From NCBI RefSeq assembly GCF_001426885.1, contig NZ_LMFP01000027.1:62001-126000 (forward strand): a DNA stretch of 64,000 nucleotides, written 5' to 3'. The notes under the pieces are model-generated. The model saw only the letters and a program-made list of their open reading frames with translations, ran no database searches and had not been told where the DNA came from. The stretch is from Pelomonas sp. Root1444. GTDB lineage: Bacteria > Pseudomonadota > Gammaproteobacteria > Burkholderiales > Burkholderiaceae_C. Shown here piece by piece: positions 14,323-17,714 of this stretch; position 1 is the stretch's first letter; each line of letters begins with the position of its first letter. Both the position numbers and the translations under genes were made by a program.

Positions 14323-15924
14323 ATGCGACTGCAAGCCGTCACCCAACGCGAGCACCCCTTCCCGGACGGCCGGCGACTGGTCTCGACGACCGACCTGAAG
14401 GGCCGCATCCTGCATGCCAACGCCGTCTTCGTCGAGATGAGCGGCTACGCGCTGAACGAGCTGCTGGGCCAGCCGCACAACATCCTGCGCCATCCGGACG
14501 TGCCGGAAGAGGCCTTCCGCGACATGTGGGCCACCATCCAGGCCGGACGGCCCTGGTCGGGTGTCGTCAAGAACCGCCGCAAGAACGGCGATCACTACTG
14601 GGTCGTGGCGCATGTGACCCCGCTGCTGGAGGGCGGTCGCCCGGCGGGCTATCTGTCGGTGCGTTCGCAGCCGACGCGCGCGCAGATCGACGCGGCCGAA
14701 GGCCTCTTCGCGTTGATGCGCCAGGAGAAGGCCAGCGGCCGGCTGCGCCATCGGCTGGACGGCGGTGAGTTGATACGCCCCGGCGTGGCCGCGGGGCTGC
14801 TGCGCCTGTGCCGCCACCAACCCTGGCTCAAGGGCATGGCGGCGCCGTTGTCGTCCGCCGCGCTGGCTGCGGCAGCCGTCACGCTGGCCGGCCCGTGGGC
14901 AGCGGCGGGCGTGGCCCTCGTCGTTGCGGCGGGCCTGGCCAAGCTGCAACATGCCCGCCTGCGTGCGACCTTGGGCGCCGTCGAGGGCTTTGCCAATGCG
15001 CTGGCTGCCGGTGACCTGTCGGTCCGGCTGCAGCCCGGCGGCAGCGCATTGACGCGCGACCTGGCGTCGGCGCTGTCGCAGGTGGCCATCAACCTCGGCG
15101 CCATGGTGGTCGACACGCGCCACGAACTGGAACGCATCCGCGGCGTCAGCCACGACATCGCGGCGGGCAACCGCGACCTGGCCCAGCGCACCGAAACGCA
15201 GGCCACCCAGCTGCAGCAGACGGCGGGCAGCATGGCCCAGATCGCCGCAACCGTGCACGGCACCAGCGCCGATGCGCAGGCGGCCAGCAGCGTGGCCGGT
15301 GAGCTGTACGGGGTGTCGCGTCGCAGCGCAGATGTCGTGCATTCGGTGACCGACACCATGGCCGGCATTGCCCGGTCGTCCGGTCGCATCGGCGAGATCG
15401 TGCAGCTCATCGACAGCATCGCCTTCCAGACCAACTTGCTGGCCTTGAACGCGGCGGTGGAAGCCGCCCGCGCGGGCGAGCACGGCAAGGGTTTTGCGGT
15501 CGTGGCCGGCGAGGTGCGGGCGCTGGCACGGCGCAGCTCGGTGGCGGCGCGTGAGATCAAGTCGCTGATCGACGACTCGACGCAGCGCGTGCAGGCTGGC
15601 GAGGCGCAAACGCGGGCTGCGCGCGAGAGCATCGACGCGACGCTCGCGCAGGTCGACGCTTTCACCACGCTGATCGCCGGCATCGACCAGGGCGCGCATG
15701 CACAGTTGCACGGCGTGGCCGGCGTGCATGGCGCAATCCGTCAACTCGACGGCATCACGCAGCAGAACGCCAGCATGGTGGAACAGCTGGCTCGCGCGGC
15801 CGCCCAGATGCTGGACGACACCGAGCAGGTGACCGCGGCGCTGCGGATCTTCCGCCTCACGGCGAACGGGTTGCGGTCACTGCCCGACGCAGTCGAACTG
15901 CGCCGCGCGGCAAAGCGGGTTTAA
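14323..15924 (+). CDS. PAS-domain methyl-accepting chemotaxis protein (Aer-like)
   Basis: A 533-residue receptor. The start at 14323 follows GAGGA at 14311-14315. An N-terminal PAS domain (about residues 10-120) contains [13 protein letters not shown] and [12 protein letters not shown], as in the FAD-binding Aer group. Two hydrophobic segments near 170-210 form a membrane anchor without a large periplasmic domain. The C-terminal signalling hairpin contains [20 protein letters not shown] (near residue 370), which binds CheA/CheW. It lacks a C-terminal CheR-docking pentapeptide. A role in redox or energy taxis is inferred. Its TAA overlaps the stop of the convergent alpha-CTD-like gene. Confidence 0.88.
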
Positions 15925-16172
15925 AGCGGCTCCGGCGCGCCGGGTTGGCGCATGCCGAAATCGTGCAGCGCGCGCTGGAGTTCTTCCGCGCGCTCGGCAC
16001 CGAGGTCGACCAACAGCCGGTGGGCCGGCGTGTTGCGGATCTGCCCGATCTGGTTGTAGCCCAGCGTCCTGGCACTCTCGAGCGTTCGGGCGCTCAGCGG
16101 CAGGCAGTCGAGCGGCGCCTGGTCGGCCAGGCTCAGCAGCAGCGCATAGGTTTCGGCGGAGATGGACACCAT
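15921..16172 (-). CDS. Stand-alone RNA polymerase alpha C-terminal-domain-like protein
   Basis: An 83-residue open frame starting [13 protein letters not shown]. Residues 20-74 align by eye with the bacterial RNA polymerase alpha C-terminal domain: [10 protein letters not shown] matches [24 protein letters not shown] matches YIGDLVQRTEVELL, and [13 protein letters not shown] matches LGKKSLTEIKDVL. The Arg equivalent to alpha Arg265 is kept (Arg29) and so is the Gly of the second hairpin (Gly58). Asn268, Cys269, Lys298 and Ser299 equivalents are changed (E, S, E, R). The start is uncertain: GGAG lies 3 bp upstream of the 16172 ATG, and an in-frame ATG at 16289 would add 39 residues. It lies downstream of the 18-residue frame and the LuxR gene on the same strand. 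Confidence 0.6.
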
Positions 16173-16318
16173 GGCTCCGCTCAGGGAACAAAGGGGCTGC
16201 GCCGGCGGCTCGCGCAGCAGCGCCCAGACGGGGACGCCGCGGGCCGCGCTCGGGCGGCGGTCGGCATCTCTGTCCTTGGCTGTGCGCATGTCGGGTCCGA
16301 TGCGTCCCAGATCAACGT

Positions 16319-16375
16319 TCAGCCGCCGAGCTTGGGCAGGCCGAGGAGTTCGCAGACGAAGTCGATGAGTTTCAT
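16319..16375 (-). CDS. Candidate 18-residue micropeptide downstream of a lux-box-like site
   Basis: A 57-bp frame encoding MKLIDFVCELLGLPKLGG. AGGAG lies 6 bp upstream of the ATG, the best ribosome site in this stretch. The peptide would be amphipathic, with hydrophobic residues (L3, I4, F6, V7, L10, L11, L13) on one face and K2, D5, E9 on the other, a single Cys8, and a GG terminus. A lux-box-like dyad is centred 78 bp upstream. No family is recognised. It could be a translated leader, a signal or membrane-active peptide, or a chance frame. Confidence 0.4.
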   Translation of the reverse strand: MKLIDFVCELLGLPKLGG

Positions 16376-16443
16376 GGTGGGCTCCTGGGGGCTGGGGAAG
16401 AAATTCGCTAGCCCGAACTGTCCCTTTTTTCATCCCCCTAGAA

Positions 16444-16463
16444 ACCTAGCAAGTCTTCTAGGT
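16444..16463. promoter_or_regulatory. lux-box-like operator 1 (ahead of the micropeptide)
   Basis: The 20-mer ACCTAGCAAGTCTTCTAGGT is a dyad with perfect ACCTAG/CTAGGT arms; with one more base on each side the arms are 7 bp. It fits the CT-N12-AG pattern of LuxR-family boxes. It lies 19 bp past the end of the LuxR gene and is centred 78 bp upstream of the micropeptide start. It matches operator 2 at 15 of 20 positions. Confidence 0.65.
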
Positions 16464-16482
16464 TGTGCGTCACACCAACGCC

Positions 16483-17211
16483 TCACAGCAGGCCGGCAGC
16501 CACGCACTTCAGCACCGCCTGGTGCTTGGAACTCACGCCCAGCTTGCGCATCGCATTGCCGAGATGGAAGTTCACCGTCTTCTCGCTCATGCCCAGGATG
16601 ACGCTGACCTCCCAGGCCGTCTTGCCCTGGGACGTCCAGCTCAGCACGTCCAGCTCGCGCCGGGTGAGCTTGGGCAGGTCCTTCTTATCGATCTTCGGGC
16701 TCAGCAGGTTGTCGGCGGCCGTCAGCGCGTGCGCCGCGAGCAGTTGCAGACCGCCGATCATCTGCATCAGCCCCGCGCCCGACTCGGGCAAGGCCTCCTC
16801 GCGGTCCACGCCGAGCAGGAAATGCTTGTTGCCCGGCAGGTGCAGCTTGACCGCGATGCCTGTCTTGTAGCCATACGGCGCCTGCGCTTCCCACACCTCA
16901 CCCGCTCCCGCGGCGGCGTAAGTCCGCTGGTCGTAGACCACCGGCACTGGCTGCGTCATCAGCTTGGCCATGACGGGGTCGCGGCGGGCCTCGCCGAGGT
17001 CCTTTGCCACCGCCAAGTAACCCTCTGGCGTGTTGCCCAGCGACGTGATCTTGACGTCCGGGTCCTGCAGCAGCCCCCGCATCAGCACGCCAGAAATGAT
17101 GGGAAAGCCCAGCGCATCGGCCGTGGCGACCAGGCGGCGCTCGAAACTGGCGAAGTCCTCGCTCAAGCCGACGTCGATCAGCTGTTGATAGTTCATTTCG
17201 GGCTTGCCCAT
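16483..17211 (-). CDS. LuxR-family regulator with autoinducer-binding domain (solo)
   Basis: A 242-residue LuxR protein. The N-terminal autoinducer-binding domain spans about residues 15-165. The acyl-homoserine-lactone pocket pattern is partly altered: the conserved Asp is kept in ARRDPVM, but the position of the classical second Trp is Tyr (VVYDQ) and the WxxxY motif is replaced by the GYLAV region. The C-terminal GerE helix-turn-helix has LTRRELDVLSWTSQGKTAWE and VNFHLGNAMRKLG. No luxI-type synthase is in the window, so it is a solo here. The start at 17211 is chosen; MNYQQ at 17196 is an alternative. A lux-box-like site lies directly before the start, suggesting autoregulation. Confidence 0.85.
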   Translation of the reverse strand: MGKPEMNYQQLIDVGLSEDFASFERRLVATADALGFPIISGVLMRGLLQDPDVKITSLGNTPEGYLAVAKDLGEARRDPVMAKLMTQPVPVVYDQRTYAAAGAGEVWEAQAPYGYKTGIAVKLHLPGNKHFLLGVDREEALPESGAGLMQMIGGLQLLAAHALTAADNLLSPKIDKKDLPKLTRRELDVLSWTSQGKTAWEVSVILGMSEKTVNFHLGNAMRKLGVSSKHQAVLKCVAAGLL

Positions 17212-17231
17212 ACCTGTCAAGTCTGCCAGCT
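17212..17231. promoter_or_regulatory. lux-box-like operator 2 (between luxR and a divergent gene)
   Basis: The 20-mer ACCTGTCAAGTCTGCCAGCT fits CT-N12-AG and agrees with operator 1 at 15 of 20 positions, including the asymmetric core CAAGTCT in the same orientation. It abuts the LuxR ATG on one side and is centred 76 bp upstream of the divergent start at 17298. That distance is almost the same as for operator 1 and the micropeptide start (78 bp). Confidence 0.65.
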
Positions 17232-17297
17232 TGTCCGGGGCCTGCCAGGGTCGGAGACTGCCTTCCCGTTGGAATCACACGACCGTGAGGTTTGTCC

Positions 17298-17714
17298 ATG
17301 TCGACCTTGATCCGGCTGCCCGAAGGCAGCGTCTGCTGGCCCGTGGCCGCACTGTCCAGCGCAGCCCAGGATGTCCGCCACGCCCAGACCAGCGTGAATC
17401 GCGCCCGCACCGGCGGCCAGACCGTCCGCGGCCTGACCCGCTGGGAGCGGCGCTATGCCGATGTCAGCGCCTGGGTGGAATGGGACTGGGTCGAGGTGGC
17501 TGAGGGCACCGTGGCGCAGGCCGACCCGCTCAACGTGCGCTCCAACGTGCTGCTGCTGGACGACCATGGTCGCCCCCTGCTGTCGTCGCGACGCCGAGCG
17601 ACGCTGGCCACGTTGGTGTACCTGCTGCCGTGGCAGGGGCCGGTGCTGGACAAGCTGCGGCTGACGGCGCCGCGGCGGCACGCCCTCCAGCCCCAGGAAC
17701 GCCTGGCCGCCTGA
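17298..17714 (+). CDS. Conserved-looking hypothetical protein divergent from luxR
   Basis: A 138-residue protein that I do not recognise. It begins MSTLIRLPEGSVCWPVAAL, has no signal peptide or membrane helix, and contains a Trp-rich strand pattern (SAWVEWDWVEV, near residue 58) and a basic stretch (SSRRRATLATLVYLLP, near 99). The ATG at 17298 is preferred to a TTG 6 bp upstream; GTGAGG lies 8-13 bp before it. It starts 86 bp from the LuxR gene in the opposite direction and shares the operator 2 region. LuxR control is therefore likely but unproven. Confidence 0.6.
   Translation: MSTLIRLPEGSVCWPVAALSSAAQDVRHAQTSVNRARTGGQTVRGLTRWERRYADVSAWVEWDWVEVAEGTVAQADPLNVRSNVLLLDDHGRPLLSSRRRATLATLVYLLPWQGPVLDKLRLTAPRRHALQPQERLAA

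Follow-up and report, generated by a model that had tools for sequence, protein, structure and literature searches.

A predicted LuxR circuit with a gene-encoded peptide as candidate autoinducer in Pelomonas and related genera

We analysed a 64,000-nucleotide (nt) stretch of the genome of Pelomonas sp. Root1444 (assembly GCF_001426885.1, contig NZ_LMFP01000027.1, positions 62,001 to 126,000 of the forward strand; hereafter, the window), which carries a luxR-type regulator gene followed by a lux-box-like site, an 18-codon open reading frame (ORF) and a gene for a small protein resembling the C-terminal domain of the RNA polymerase alpha subunit (alpha-CTD). A gene related to rsaM diverges from luxR. 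We consider it probable that this locus encodes a LuxR circuit in which a gene-encoded peptide, the product of the 18-codon ORF, serves as the autoinducer and RsaM as a brake. The initial annotation of the locus treated the ORF as a detail; judging from the sequence comparisons below, it is a widely conserved partner of this type of LuxR receptor.

Results

Conservation of the 18-codon ORF in the genus

In the 5.89-Mb genome that hosts the window, luxR, the first box (operator A), the 18-codon ORF and the alpha-CTD-like gene follow one another on the minus strand (hereafter, the module), and the RsaM-like gene lies on the plus strand, with a second box (operator B) between it and luxR. All elements listed in the initial annotation, namely, the solo LuxR, two boxes, the 18-residue frame and the alpha-CTD-like and divergent genes, are present. 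In all 18 loci of the genus that contain the alpha-CTD-like gene, luxR is located upstream of it (only the end of luxR in the case of L010), and an ORF of exactly 18 codons is found between the two. The rsaM gene is divergent from luxR in 17 of these loci; in the exception, G006, the contig breaks inside luxR, and the remaining half of the gene is located together with rsaM on another contig.

The ORF is indeed preceded by a ribosome site, as proposed initially, with GGAG 6 nt upstream. The 18 genus ORFs have 18 distinct DNA sequences, all encoding 18 residues, and the variable columns number 14, 8 and 16 of 17 at the three codon positions, respectively. The ratio of nonsynonymous to synonymous changes is 0.34 of the neutral expectation and, by this measure, the ORF is under purifying selection. 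Most of the genus peptides end in LP[KR]xGG. In each of the 18 loci, the peptide gene adjoins the regulator gene behind a box, the arrangement expected of a peptide pheromone system.

A family of peptide genes beside related luxR genes

Receptors related to the window LuxR (E ≤1e-30) were searched for in 399 genomes of the family and found in 102 of these, representing 39 of the 141 genera. Most of these loci, together with the paralogs from the genus, entered a survey of 150 LuxR copies, from which 10 copies followed by another luxR and two truncated ones were left out. The remaining 138 copies include one truncated module copy (L073) and at least 12 paralogs from the window's genus but exclude the 18 module loci. 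A strict peptide motif (a led ORF ending in P-x(1-4)-W, ≤350 nt downstream) is present after 73 of the 138 LuxR copies, each the last in its row, and a wider motif after 103. The corresponding controls gave 13 and 25 hits among 3338 random windows, and 16 and 22 among 1417 stretches following other long frames. Under a looser choice, a peptide gene is recognized at 117 of the 138 loci, including 77 long (≥44 residues) and 40 short ones, with the peptides ending in P-x-x-(G)-W or P-x-x-G-G. Four rows were set aside, namely, three spurious picks and L155, which was later read as MICLPRVGW. The box core CTRN10YAG is centred 60-100 nt before the peptide start at 107 of the 117 loci, compared with 55 of 2340 random positions.

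In a second set of 80 named loci, half of which (40) repeat survey loci, the peptide was found by script in 66 of the 78 untruncated loci; among the 40 new loci, this was the case for 29 of the 39 that are untruncated. Nine of the 12 loci missed by the script were read, revealing two 9-codon genes, four double-glycine or repeat precursors, two Rubrivivax records with the gene on the opposite strand and one doubtful case. In the two Rubrivivax loci, those of R. benzoatilyticus JA2 (L260) and R. gelatinosus DSM 1709 (L261), the peptide MWDIIAEILGFPRTGGL is encoded past the downstream end of luxR, in the opposite orientation and behind a box-like site of its own.

All 77 long precursors contain a double-glycine-type motif (matched with a loose pattern), and 69 end in W. 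The core occurs between one and five times per long form and is repeated (2-5 copies) in 24 of the 77. The shortest stretches behind the glycines are LPRVGGW, LPKATW and APRPMW, leading us to guess that the core comprises 6-7 residues. The short survey peptides (16-33 residues) are leaderless and end in W (12 of 40) or G (16 of 40). The smallest genes, MTSYPRVGW and MICLPRVGW, span 9 codons and encode little besides the core; at these loci (L262 and L269), the box is centred roughly 83 nt ahead of the start codon. Linking forms, such as MFWDFVCELLGLPRTGGW, connect the window peptide, MKLIDFVCELLGLPKLGG, with the W-ending peptides.

The two size classes differ in their association with exporters. 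A motif of the C39 peptidase, typical of ATP-binding cassette (ABC) transporters that process double-glycine precursors, was detected downstream of 60 of the 77 long peptide genes versus none of the 40 short ones (38 of which have at least 2.5 kb of searchable sequence). Six of the other 17 long loci contain the same exporter gene clusters as judged by similarity, and a Pfam search at one long locus (L163) identified a C39-ABC transporter together with HlyD. At one short locus, L148, a transporter-cluster protein is encoded farther away and lacks the C39 motif. The rsaM gene adjoins 106 of 119 peptide loci.

When 17 hand-picked peptides were compared with NCBIfam and Pfam, only single weak matches were obtained (best E 0.01 and 0.045). 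A search of 369 genomes sampled across the class with a receptor profile at E 1e-45 recovered the window's own genome only, a strict threshold below which looser relatives are possible. The sets chosen for diversity comprise 16 rows for LuxR (A2) and 17 peptides (A3).

The window's genome encodes a second receptor of this type (L057, G000:C28:417931-418644). It is 46% identical to the first and is accompanied by a separate box, CTACCAGGGTTTGTAG, and a separate peptide, MENFSFWQVVAELLGFPVTGS; a search at E 1e-4 gave no alpha-CTD-like match there. Five loci (L169, L183, L196, L200 and L228) contain tandem rows of 3-5 luxR-type genes, with the peptide and box following one copy.

Receptor and absence of an AHL synthase

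The window LuxR contains the autoinducer-binding domain (PF03472) and the GerE helix-turn-helix domain (PF00196), both scoring above cut-off, and its best solved relative is LasR (Table 1). The synthase of N-acyl-homoserine lactones (AHL), PF00765, had no match in the window's genome, bearing out the designation of this LuxR as a solo. Weak PF00765 matches in 8 of the 20 genus genomes were considered as hidden AHL synthases; three of the eight were scanned, and all three are exosortase acyltransferases (TIGR03694).

In LasR, the residues W60, D73, W88 and S129 line the AHL pocket, with D73 being a key AHL contact. The window LuxR has Y, D, Y and G at these positions and, accordingly, retains one of the four. 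Among 132 receptors, the W60 position is occupied by Y, F or H in 124, by W in six and by M or A in two, whereas G replaces S129 in 130. The W88 position is W in all 75 long-class receptors, and Y in all 17 module rows and in 30 of the 40 short-class receptors. W88 accompanies peptides with a W core in 79 rows and Y88 accompanies peptides without it in 39, with 12 exceptions among the 130.

Operators and promoter geometry

Operator A spans 22 bp and has perfect arms of 7 bp (AACCTAG-8-CTAGGTT). The perfect dyad described in the initial annotation is there, although located 18 rather than 19 bp beyond the luxR stop. Operator B, the second dyad noted at that stage, is an imperfect one directly before luxR. 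Operator A follows luxR in all 18 genus loci, and operator B is present in all 17 loci whose sequence covers that stretch. The window contains 32 matches to the loose core CTRN10YAG, where 41 would be expected. Given this lack of enrichment, chance boxes had to be guarded against, and a site was taken as a box only if it matched the full 20-mer, was conserved or stood at a fixed distance. With up to two mismatches, the full 20-mer is found at two places in the 5.89-Mb genome, namely, operators A and B, and with up to one mismatch, operator A is unique to the locus. Noise begins at three mismatches, where the backward control gives two hits. No site with up to two mismatches was found in the two genus genomes lacking the module. 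A near-match with three mismatches, ATCTGGTAGACCTGCCAGGG, recurs in Pelomonas genomes (for example, at G012:C16:271731, G002:C1:880250 and G017:C7:97680), G017 being a genome without the module.

In the genus alignment, a conserved GACAGT block is located 31.5-36.5 nt past the centre of operator A; on the rsaM side, a GAGACT block follows at 32.5-37.5 nt past that of operator B. This common geometry suggests that LuxR acts on both the peptide operon and rsaM.

Table 1. Coordinates of the predicted features of the locus, numbered from the first nucleotide of the window
Feature	Position	Strand	Evidence
Alpha-CTD-like protein, 82-83 aa	15921..16172	-	18/20 genus genomes; AlphaFold2; fold matches
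18-codon ORF MKLIDFVCELLGLPKLGG, candidate signal peptide gene	16319..16375	-	Translation, genus conservation, relatives beside other luxR
GACAGT block, candidate -10 of the peptide promoter	16417..16422	-	Genus alignment; putative promoter role
Operator A, lux-box-like dyad between luxR and the peptide ORF	16443..16464	-	Conserved in 18/18 genus loci
luxR-type regulator, 237 aa	16483..17196	-	PF03472 E 1.1e-10, PF00196 E 1.5e-19; LasR E 1.1e-20
Operator B, second lux-box-like site between luxR and rsaM	17212..17231	+	Conserved in 17 genus loci
GAGACT block (GCAGTCTC conserved on the other strand), candidate -10 of rsaM	17254..17259	+	Alignment; putative promoter role
RsaM-like gene (DUF4902), 138 aa	17298..17714	+	PF16245 E 4.9e-5; PDB 4o2h E 8.6e-5

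For luxR, an alternative earlier start is possible at 17220. The alpha-CTD-like frame is convergent with a long plus-strand frame, which reads as a methyl-accepting chemoreceptor-like protein, and the ends of the two overlap by 4 bases (15921-15924).

The divergent gene is related to rsaM

The 138-residue product of the divergent gene, originally listed as an unknown, matches DUF4902 (PF16245) with 23.7 bits, slightly below the cut-off of 25, and protein BCAM1869 (PDB 4o2h), which we take to be BcRsaM. These matches identify the gene as a relative of rsaM, a known modulator of quorum sensing, and it occupies the place adjacent to luxR that is typical of rsaM. According to a review (PMC10710839), RsaM in most cases exerts strong negative control over AHL systems, although there are exceptions.

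The alpha-CTD-like protein

For the 83-residue ORF, the genus alignment favours a start one codon later, usually GTG. The gene is present in 18 of the 20 genus genomes and, with one query at E ≤0.001, in none of 80 genomes of other genera and, hence, is confined to the window's genus in this sample. The expectation that the genes and boxes co-occur in related genomes thus holds within the genus, where gene order and boxes are kept, but not beyond it for this gene.

The fold is likely that of an alpha-CTD, as the initial annotation had supposed. The AlphaFold2 model, built from 16 of the 18 sequences (set A1; L002, where the stretch ran into a stop codon, and L011, nearly the same as L009, were left out), has a pLDDT of 86.5 and a pTM of 0.69. 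The best Foldseek rows include alpha-CTDs with a root-mean-square deviation (rmsd) of 1.1-1.3 over about 60 columns (3gfk_B, 1.1; 9dvt_A, 1.3; 1z3e_B, 1.3), and the TM-score by target for 9dvt_A is 0.84. This agreement of the predicted structure comes with no Foldseek E-value ≤0.001, and helix-hairpin-helix domains of the RAD51 type match too. The sequence support is weak but agrees with this fold. Seven of the 18 genus copies match PF03118 at E ≤10, none above cut-off; the alpha subunit accounts for 10 of 11 rows in the PDB profile search (best E 0.077), the top row (E 0.0027) being an unrelated protein; and alignment with the genome's own RpoA scores 43, against a shuffle mean of 27.7, with 5 of 500 shuffles scoring as high.

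In the model that goes back to the initial annotation, this protein is central: it would take over, or compete for, the contact that LuxR makes with polymerase, and the 18-codon ORF would be incidental or a leader peptide controlling it. The fold, the adjacency of the gene to luxR in 18 of 18 loci and the invariance, throughout the alpha-CTD-like family, of the arginine aligned with R265 of alpha are all consistent with such a role. However, the same type of peptide and box is found beside luxR genes of other genera that lack the alpha-CTD-like gene. Furthermore, the alpha positions N268, C269, K298 and S299, which have roles in DNA contact, are replaced by E, S, E and R, respectively, in the window protein. 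In the genus alignment, the stretch between the ORF and the gene varies widely in both length and sequence, and for this inconstancy we also rejected control of the alpha-CTD-like gene by a leader peptide. Taken together, we regard a circuit centred on the alpha-CTD-like protein as very improbable.

Discussion

A peptide-responsive LuxR circuit and its alternatives

The circuit that we infer builds on gene content and order, conservation, boxes, the peptide family and its exporter association, which are read directly from the DNA, and extends them to translation of the ORF, the identity of the ligand, its maturation, export or re-entry, binding and activation, the sign of the RsaM effect and the alpha-CTD output. 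The signal would be a gene-encoded peptide rather than an AHL, its gene being located behind a lux box where luxI often sits. The active part would be the C-terminal 6-7 residues, here about LPKLGG, and would bind the ligand-binding domain of LuxR, directly or following export, trimming and re-uptake. The peptide-bound LuxR would act at operator A to turn on both the peptide gene, as positive feedback, and the alpha-CTD-like gene, as output; at operator B, it would turn on rsaM, as negative feedback. In the relatives, an adjacent C39-peptidase ABC transporter with an HlyD adaptor probably cleaves the double-glycine precursors and exports them; the window's genus would use a short form that has no leader and no exporter at the locus. 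A third strong box was not found in the window's genome, which makes the alpha-CTD-like protein a candidate for the output of the circuit, directed at RNA polymerase.

Several observations weigh against this proposal. The peptide motif applied in the survey had itself been derived from the earliest loci inspected, so that its weight rests on the controls and the later loci, and 17 of the 138 survey loci have no recognized peptide. The apparent receptor-ligand covariation at residue 88 involves few changes on the tree (two for the residue and five for the peptide trait) and, not being independent of descent, was dropped as an argument. Two genus genomes, G006 and G009, each contain one further site with up to two mismatches elsewhere, so that the circuit may have other targets. 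The weakest point is transport: the window peptide has neither a double-glycine leader nor a C39 exporter, and no C39 peptidase match was found in the window's genome. Finally, D73 is retained in 130 of the 132 receptors, and the gene behind the lux box in such loci could encode an output instead of a signal.

The last point corresponds to an alternative in which the peptides are bacteriocin-like or other secreted products, switched on by a LuxR solo that senses the AHLs of neighbours or another ligand. Retention of D73 would fit this scenario, and double-glycine leaders with C39-peptidase ABC transporters are typical of bacteriocins and signals alike; PMC5872303 mentions LuxR-linked clusters that lack luxI, bacteriocin clusters among them. 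On the other hand, the core consists of only 6-7 residues and follows one pattern across many genera, genes of 9 codons exist and no C39 exporter was detected near any of the 40 short peptides in the survey. Three of the examined pocket positions differ from LasR in nearly every receptor, and no modification enzyme stood out in the larger downstream gene clusters, a few of which were identified. We therefore consider an output role of the peptides unlikely.

Alternatively, the short leaderless peptides could be intracellular micro-regulators, either anti-activators or co-factors of LuxR, that are never exported. This would agree with the lack of a leader, with the absence of a C39 peptidase from the window's genome and from the surroundings of the 40 short survey peptides, and with the fixed length of 18 residues in the genus, but the C-terminal core is common to double-glycine precursors built for apparent export, so that a role confined to the cell interior would have to have arisen secondarily. 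Such a role appears quite unlikely to us. The reading of the peptide as an autoinducer can also be put in a wider form, as a new class of Gram-negative quorum sensing in which LuxR receptors are paired with a ribosomal autoinducer that is about 6-7 residues long and has the form P-x-x-(G)-W or P-x-x-G-G. Its gene would occupy the position of luxI, downstream of a lux box, and RsaM would act as the brake; the class would extend across many genera of the Rubrivivax-Roseateles-Ideonella group and, in Pelomonas, have a free-standing alpha-CTD-like protein as its output. On this wider form our judgement is evenly poised.

Relation to known systems

The locus resembles LuxI/LuxR AHL systems with an intervening RsaM gene in its LuxR receptor, lux boxes, RsaM neighbour and a gene behind a lux box at the position of luxI, but differs from them in having a peptide ORF there, in the lack of an AHL synthase match in the window's genome and in the changes at the W60 and S129 positions of LasR. 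Rgg/SHP, ComR/ComS and RRNPP are Gram-positive peptide pheromone systems with an intracellular receptor. They share with our locus a short peptide gene beside the regulator and, presumably, a C-terminal active part and autoinduction; the receptor here is a LuxR protein rather than an RRNPP protein, with putative re-import and ligand binding. The long relatives, with their double-glycine motif and, mostly, a C39 ABC transporter and HlyD, are similar to double-glycine/C39 (PCAT) systems, unlike the window peptide, which has no leader or exporter. The alpha-CTD-like protein shares with the RNA polymerase alpha-CTD the fold and the arginine at the R265 position but is a free-standing protein of 82-83 residues with several changed DNA-contact positions.

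A LuxR solo activated by a peptide (Ser-His-Ser) and requiring an ABC peptide transporter, PipR, is known from PMC4981722; its signal comes from outside (plant or hydrolysate), its gene neighbours encode peptidases and it lacks a cognate peptide gene. A later review (PMC10134790) gives an ethanolamine derivative as the PipR ligand. Divergent rsaM-luxR solo pairs, from Pelomonas and Kinneretia among others, are already catalogued in section 4 of PMC10710839. The organisation section of that review, where divergent rsaM-luxR solos form the type 6 topology, includes neither a peptide gene and its lux-box control nor an alpha-CTD-like gene. Among the titles and abstract openings returned by searches of open-licence PMC articles, a scope that leaves preprints and subscription papers outside, no description of a peptide gene beside an rsaM-luxR solo was found. 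Thus, the rsaM-luxR solo pair and a LuxR answering to an outside peptide are already known, and the lux-box peptide genes beside luxR are apparently new.

Significance

LuxR receptors are the textbook sensors of AHLs, and the ligands of LuxR solos are a long-standing question. Here, more than 100 LuxR solos have a candidate ligand encoded alongside, which makes the pairing testable with cheap synthetic peptides. If the peptide is indeed the ligand, this would be a new class of quorum sensing, in which a Gram-negative receptor family is joined to a Gram-positive-style peptide signal and RsaM gains an AHL-free setting. The alpha-CTD-like gene would be an unusual quorum-sensing output, and many related receptor-peptide pairs would be available, including 9-codon peptide genes whose small size points at the active part of the signal.

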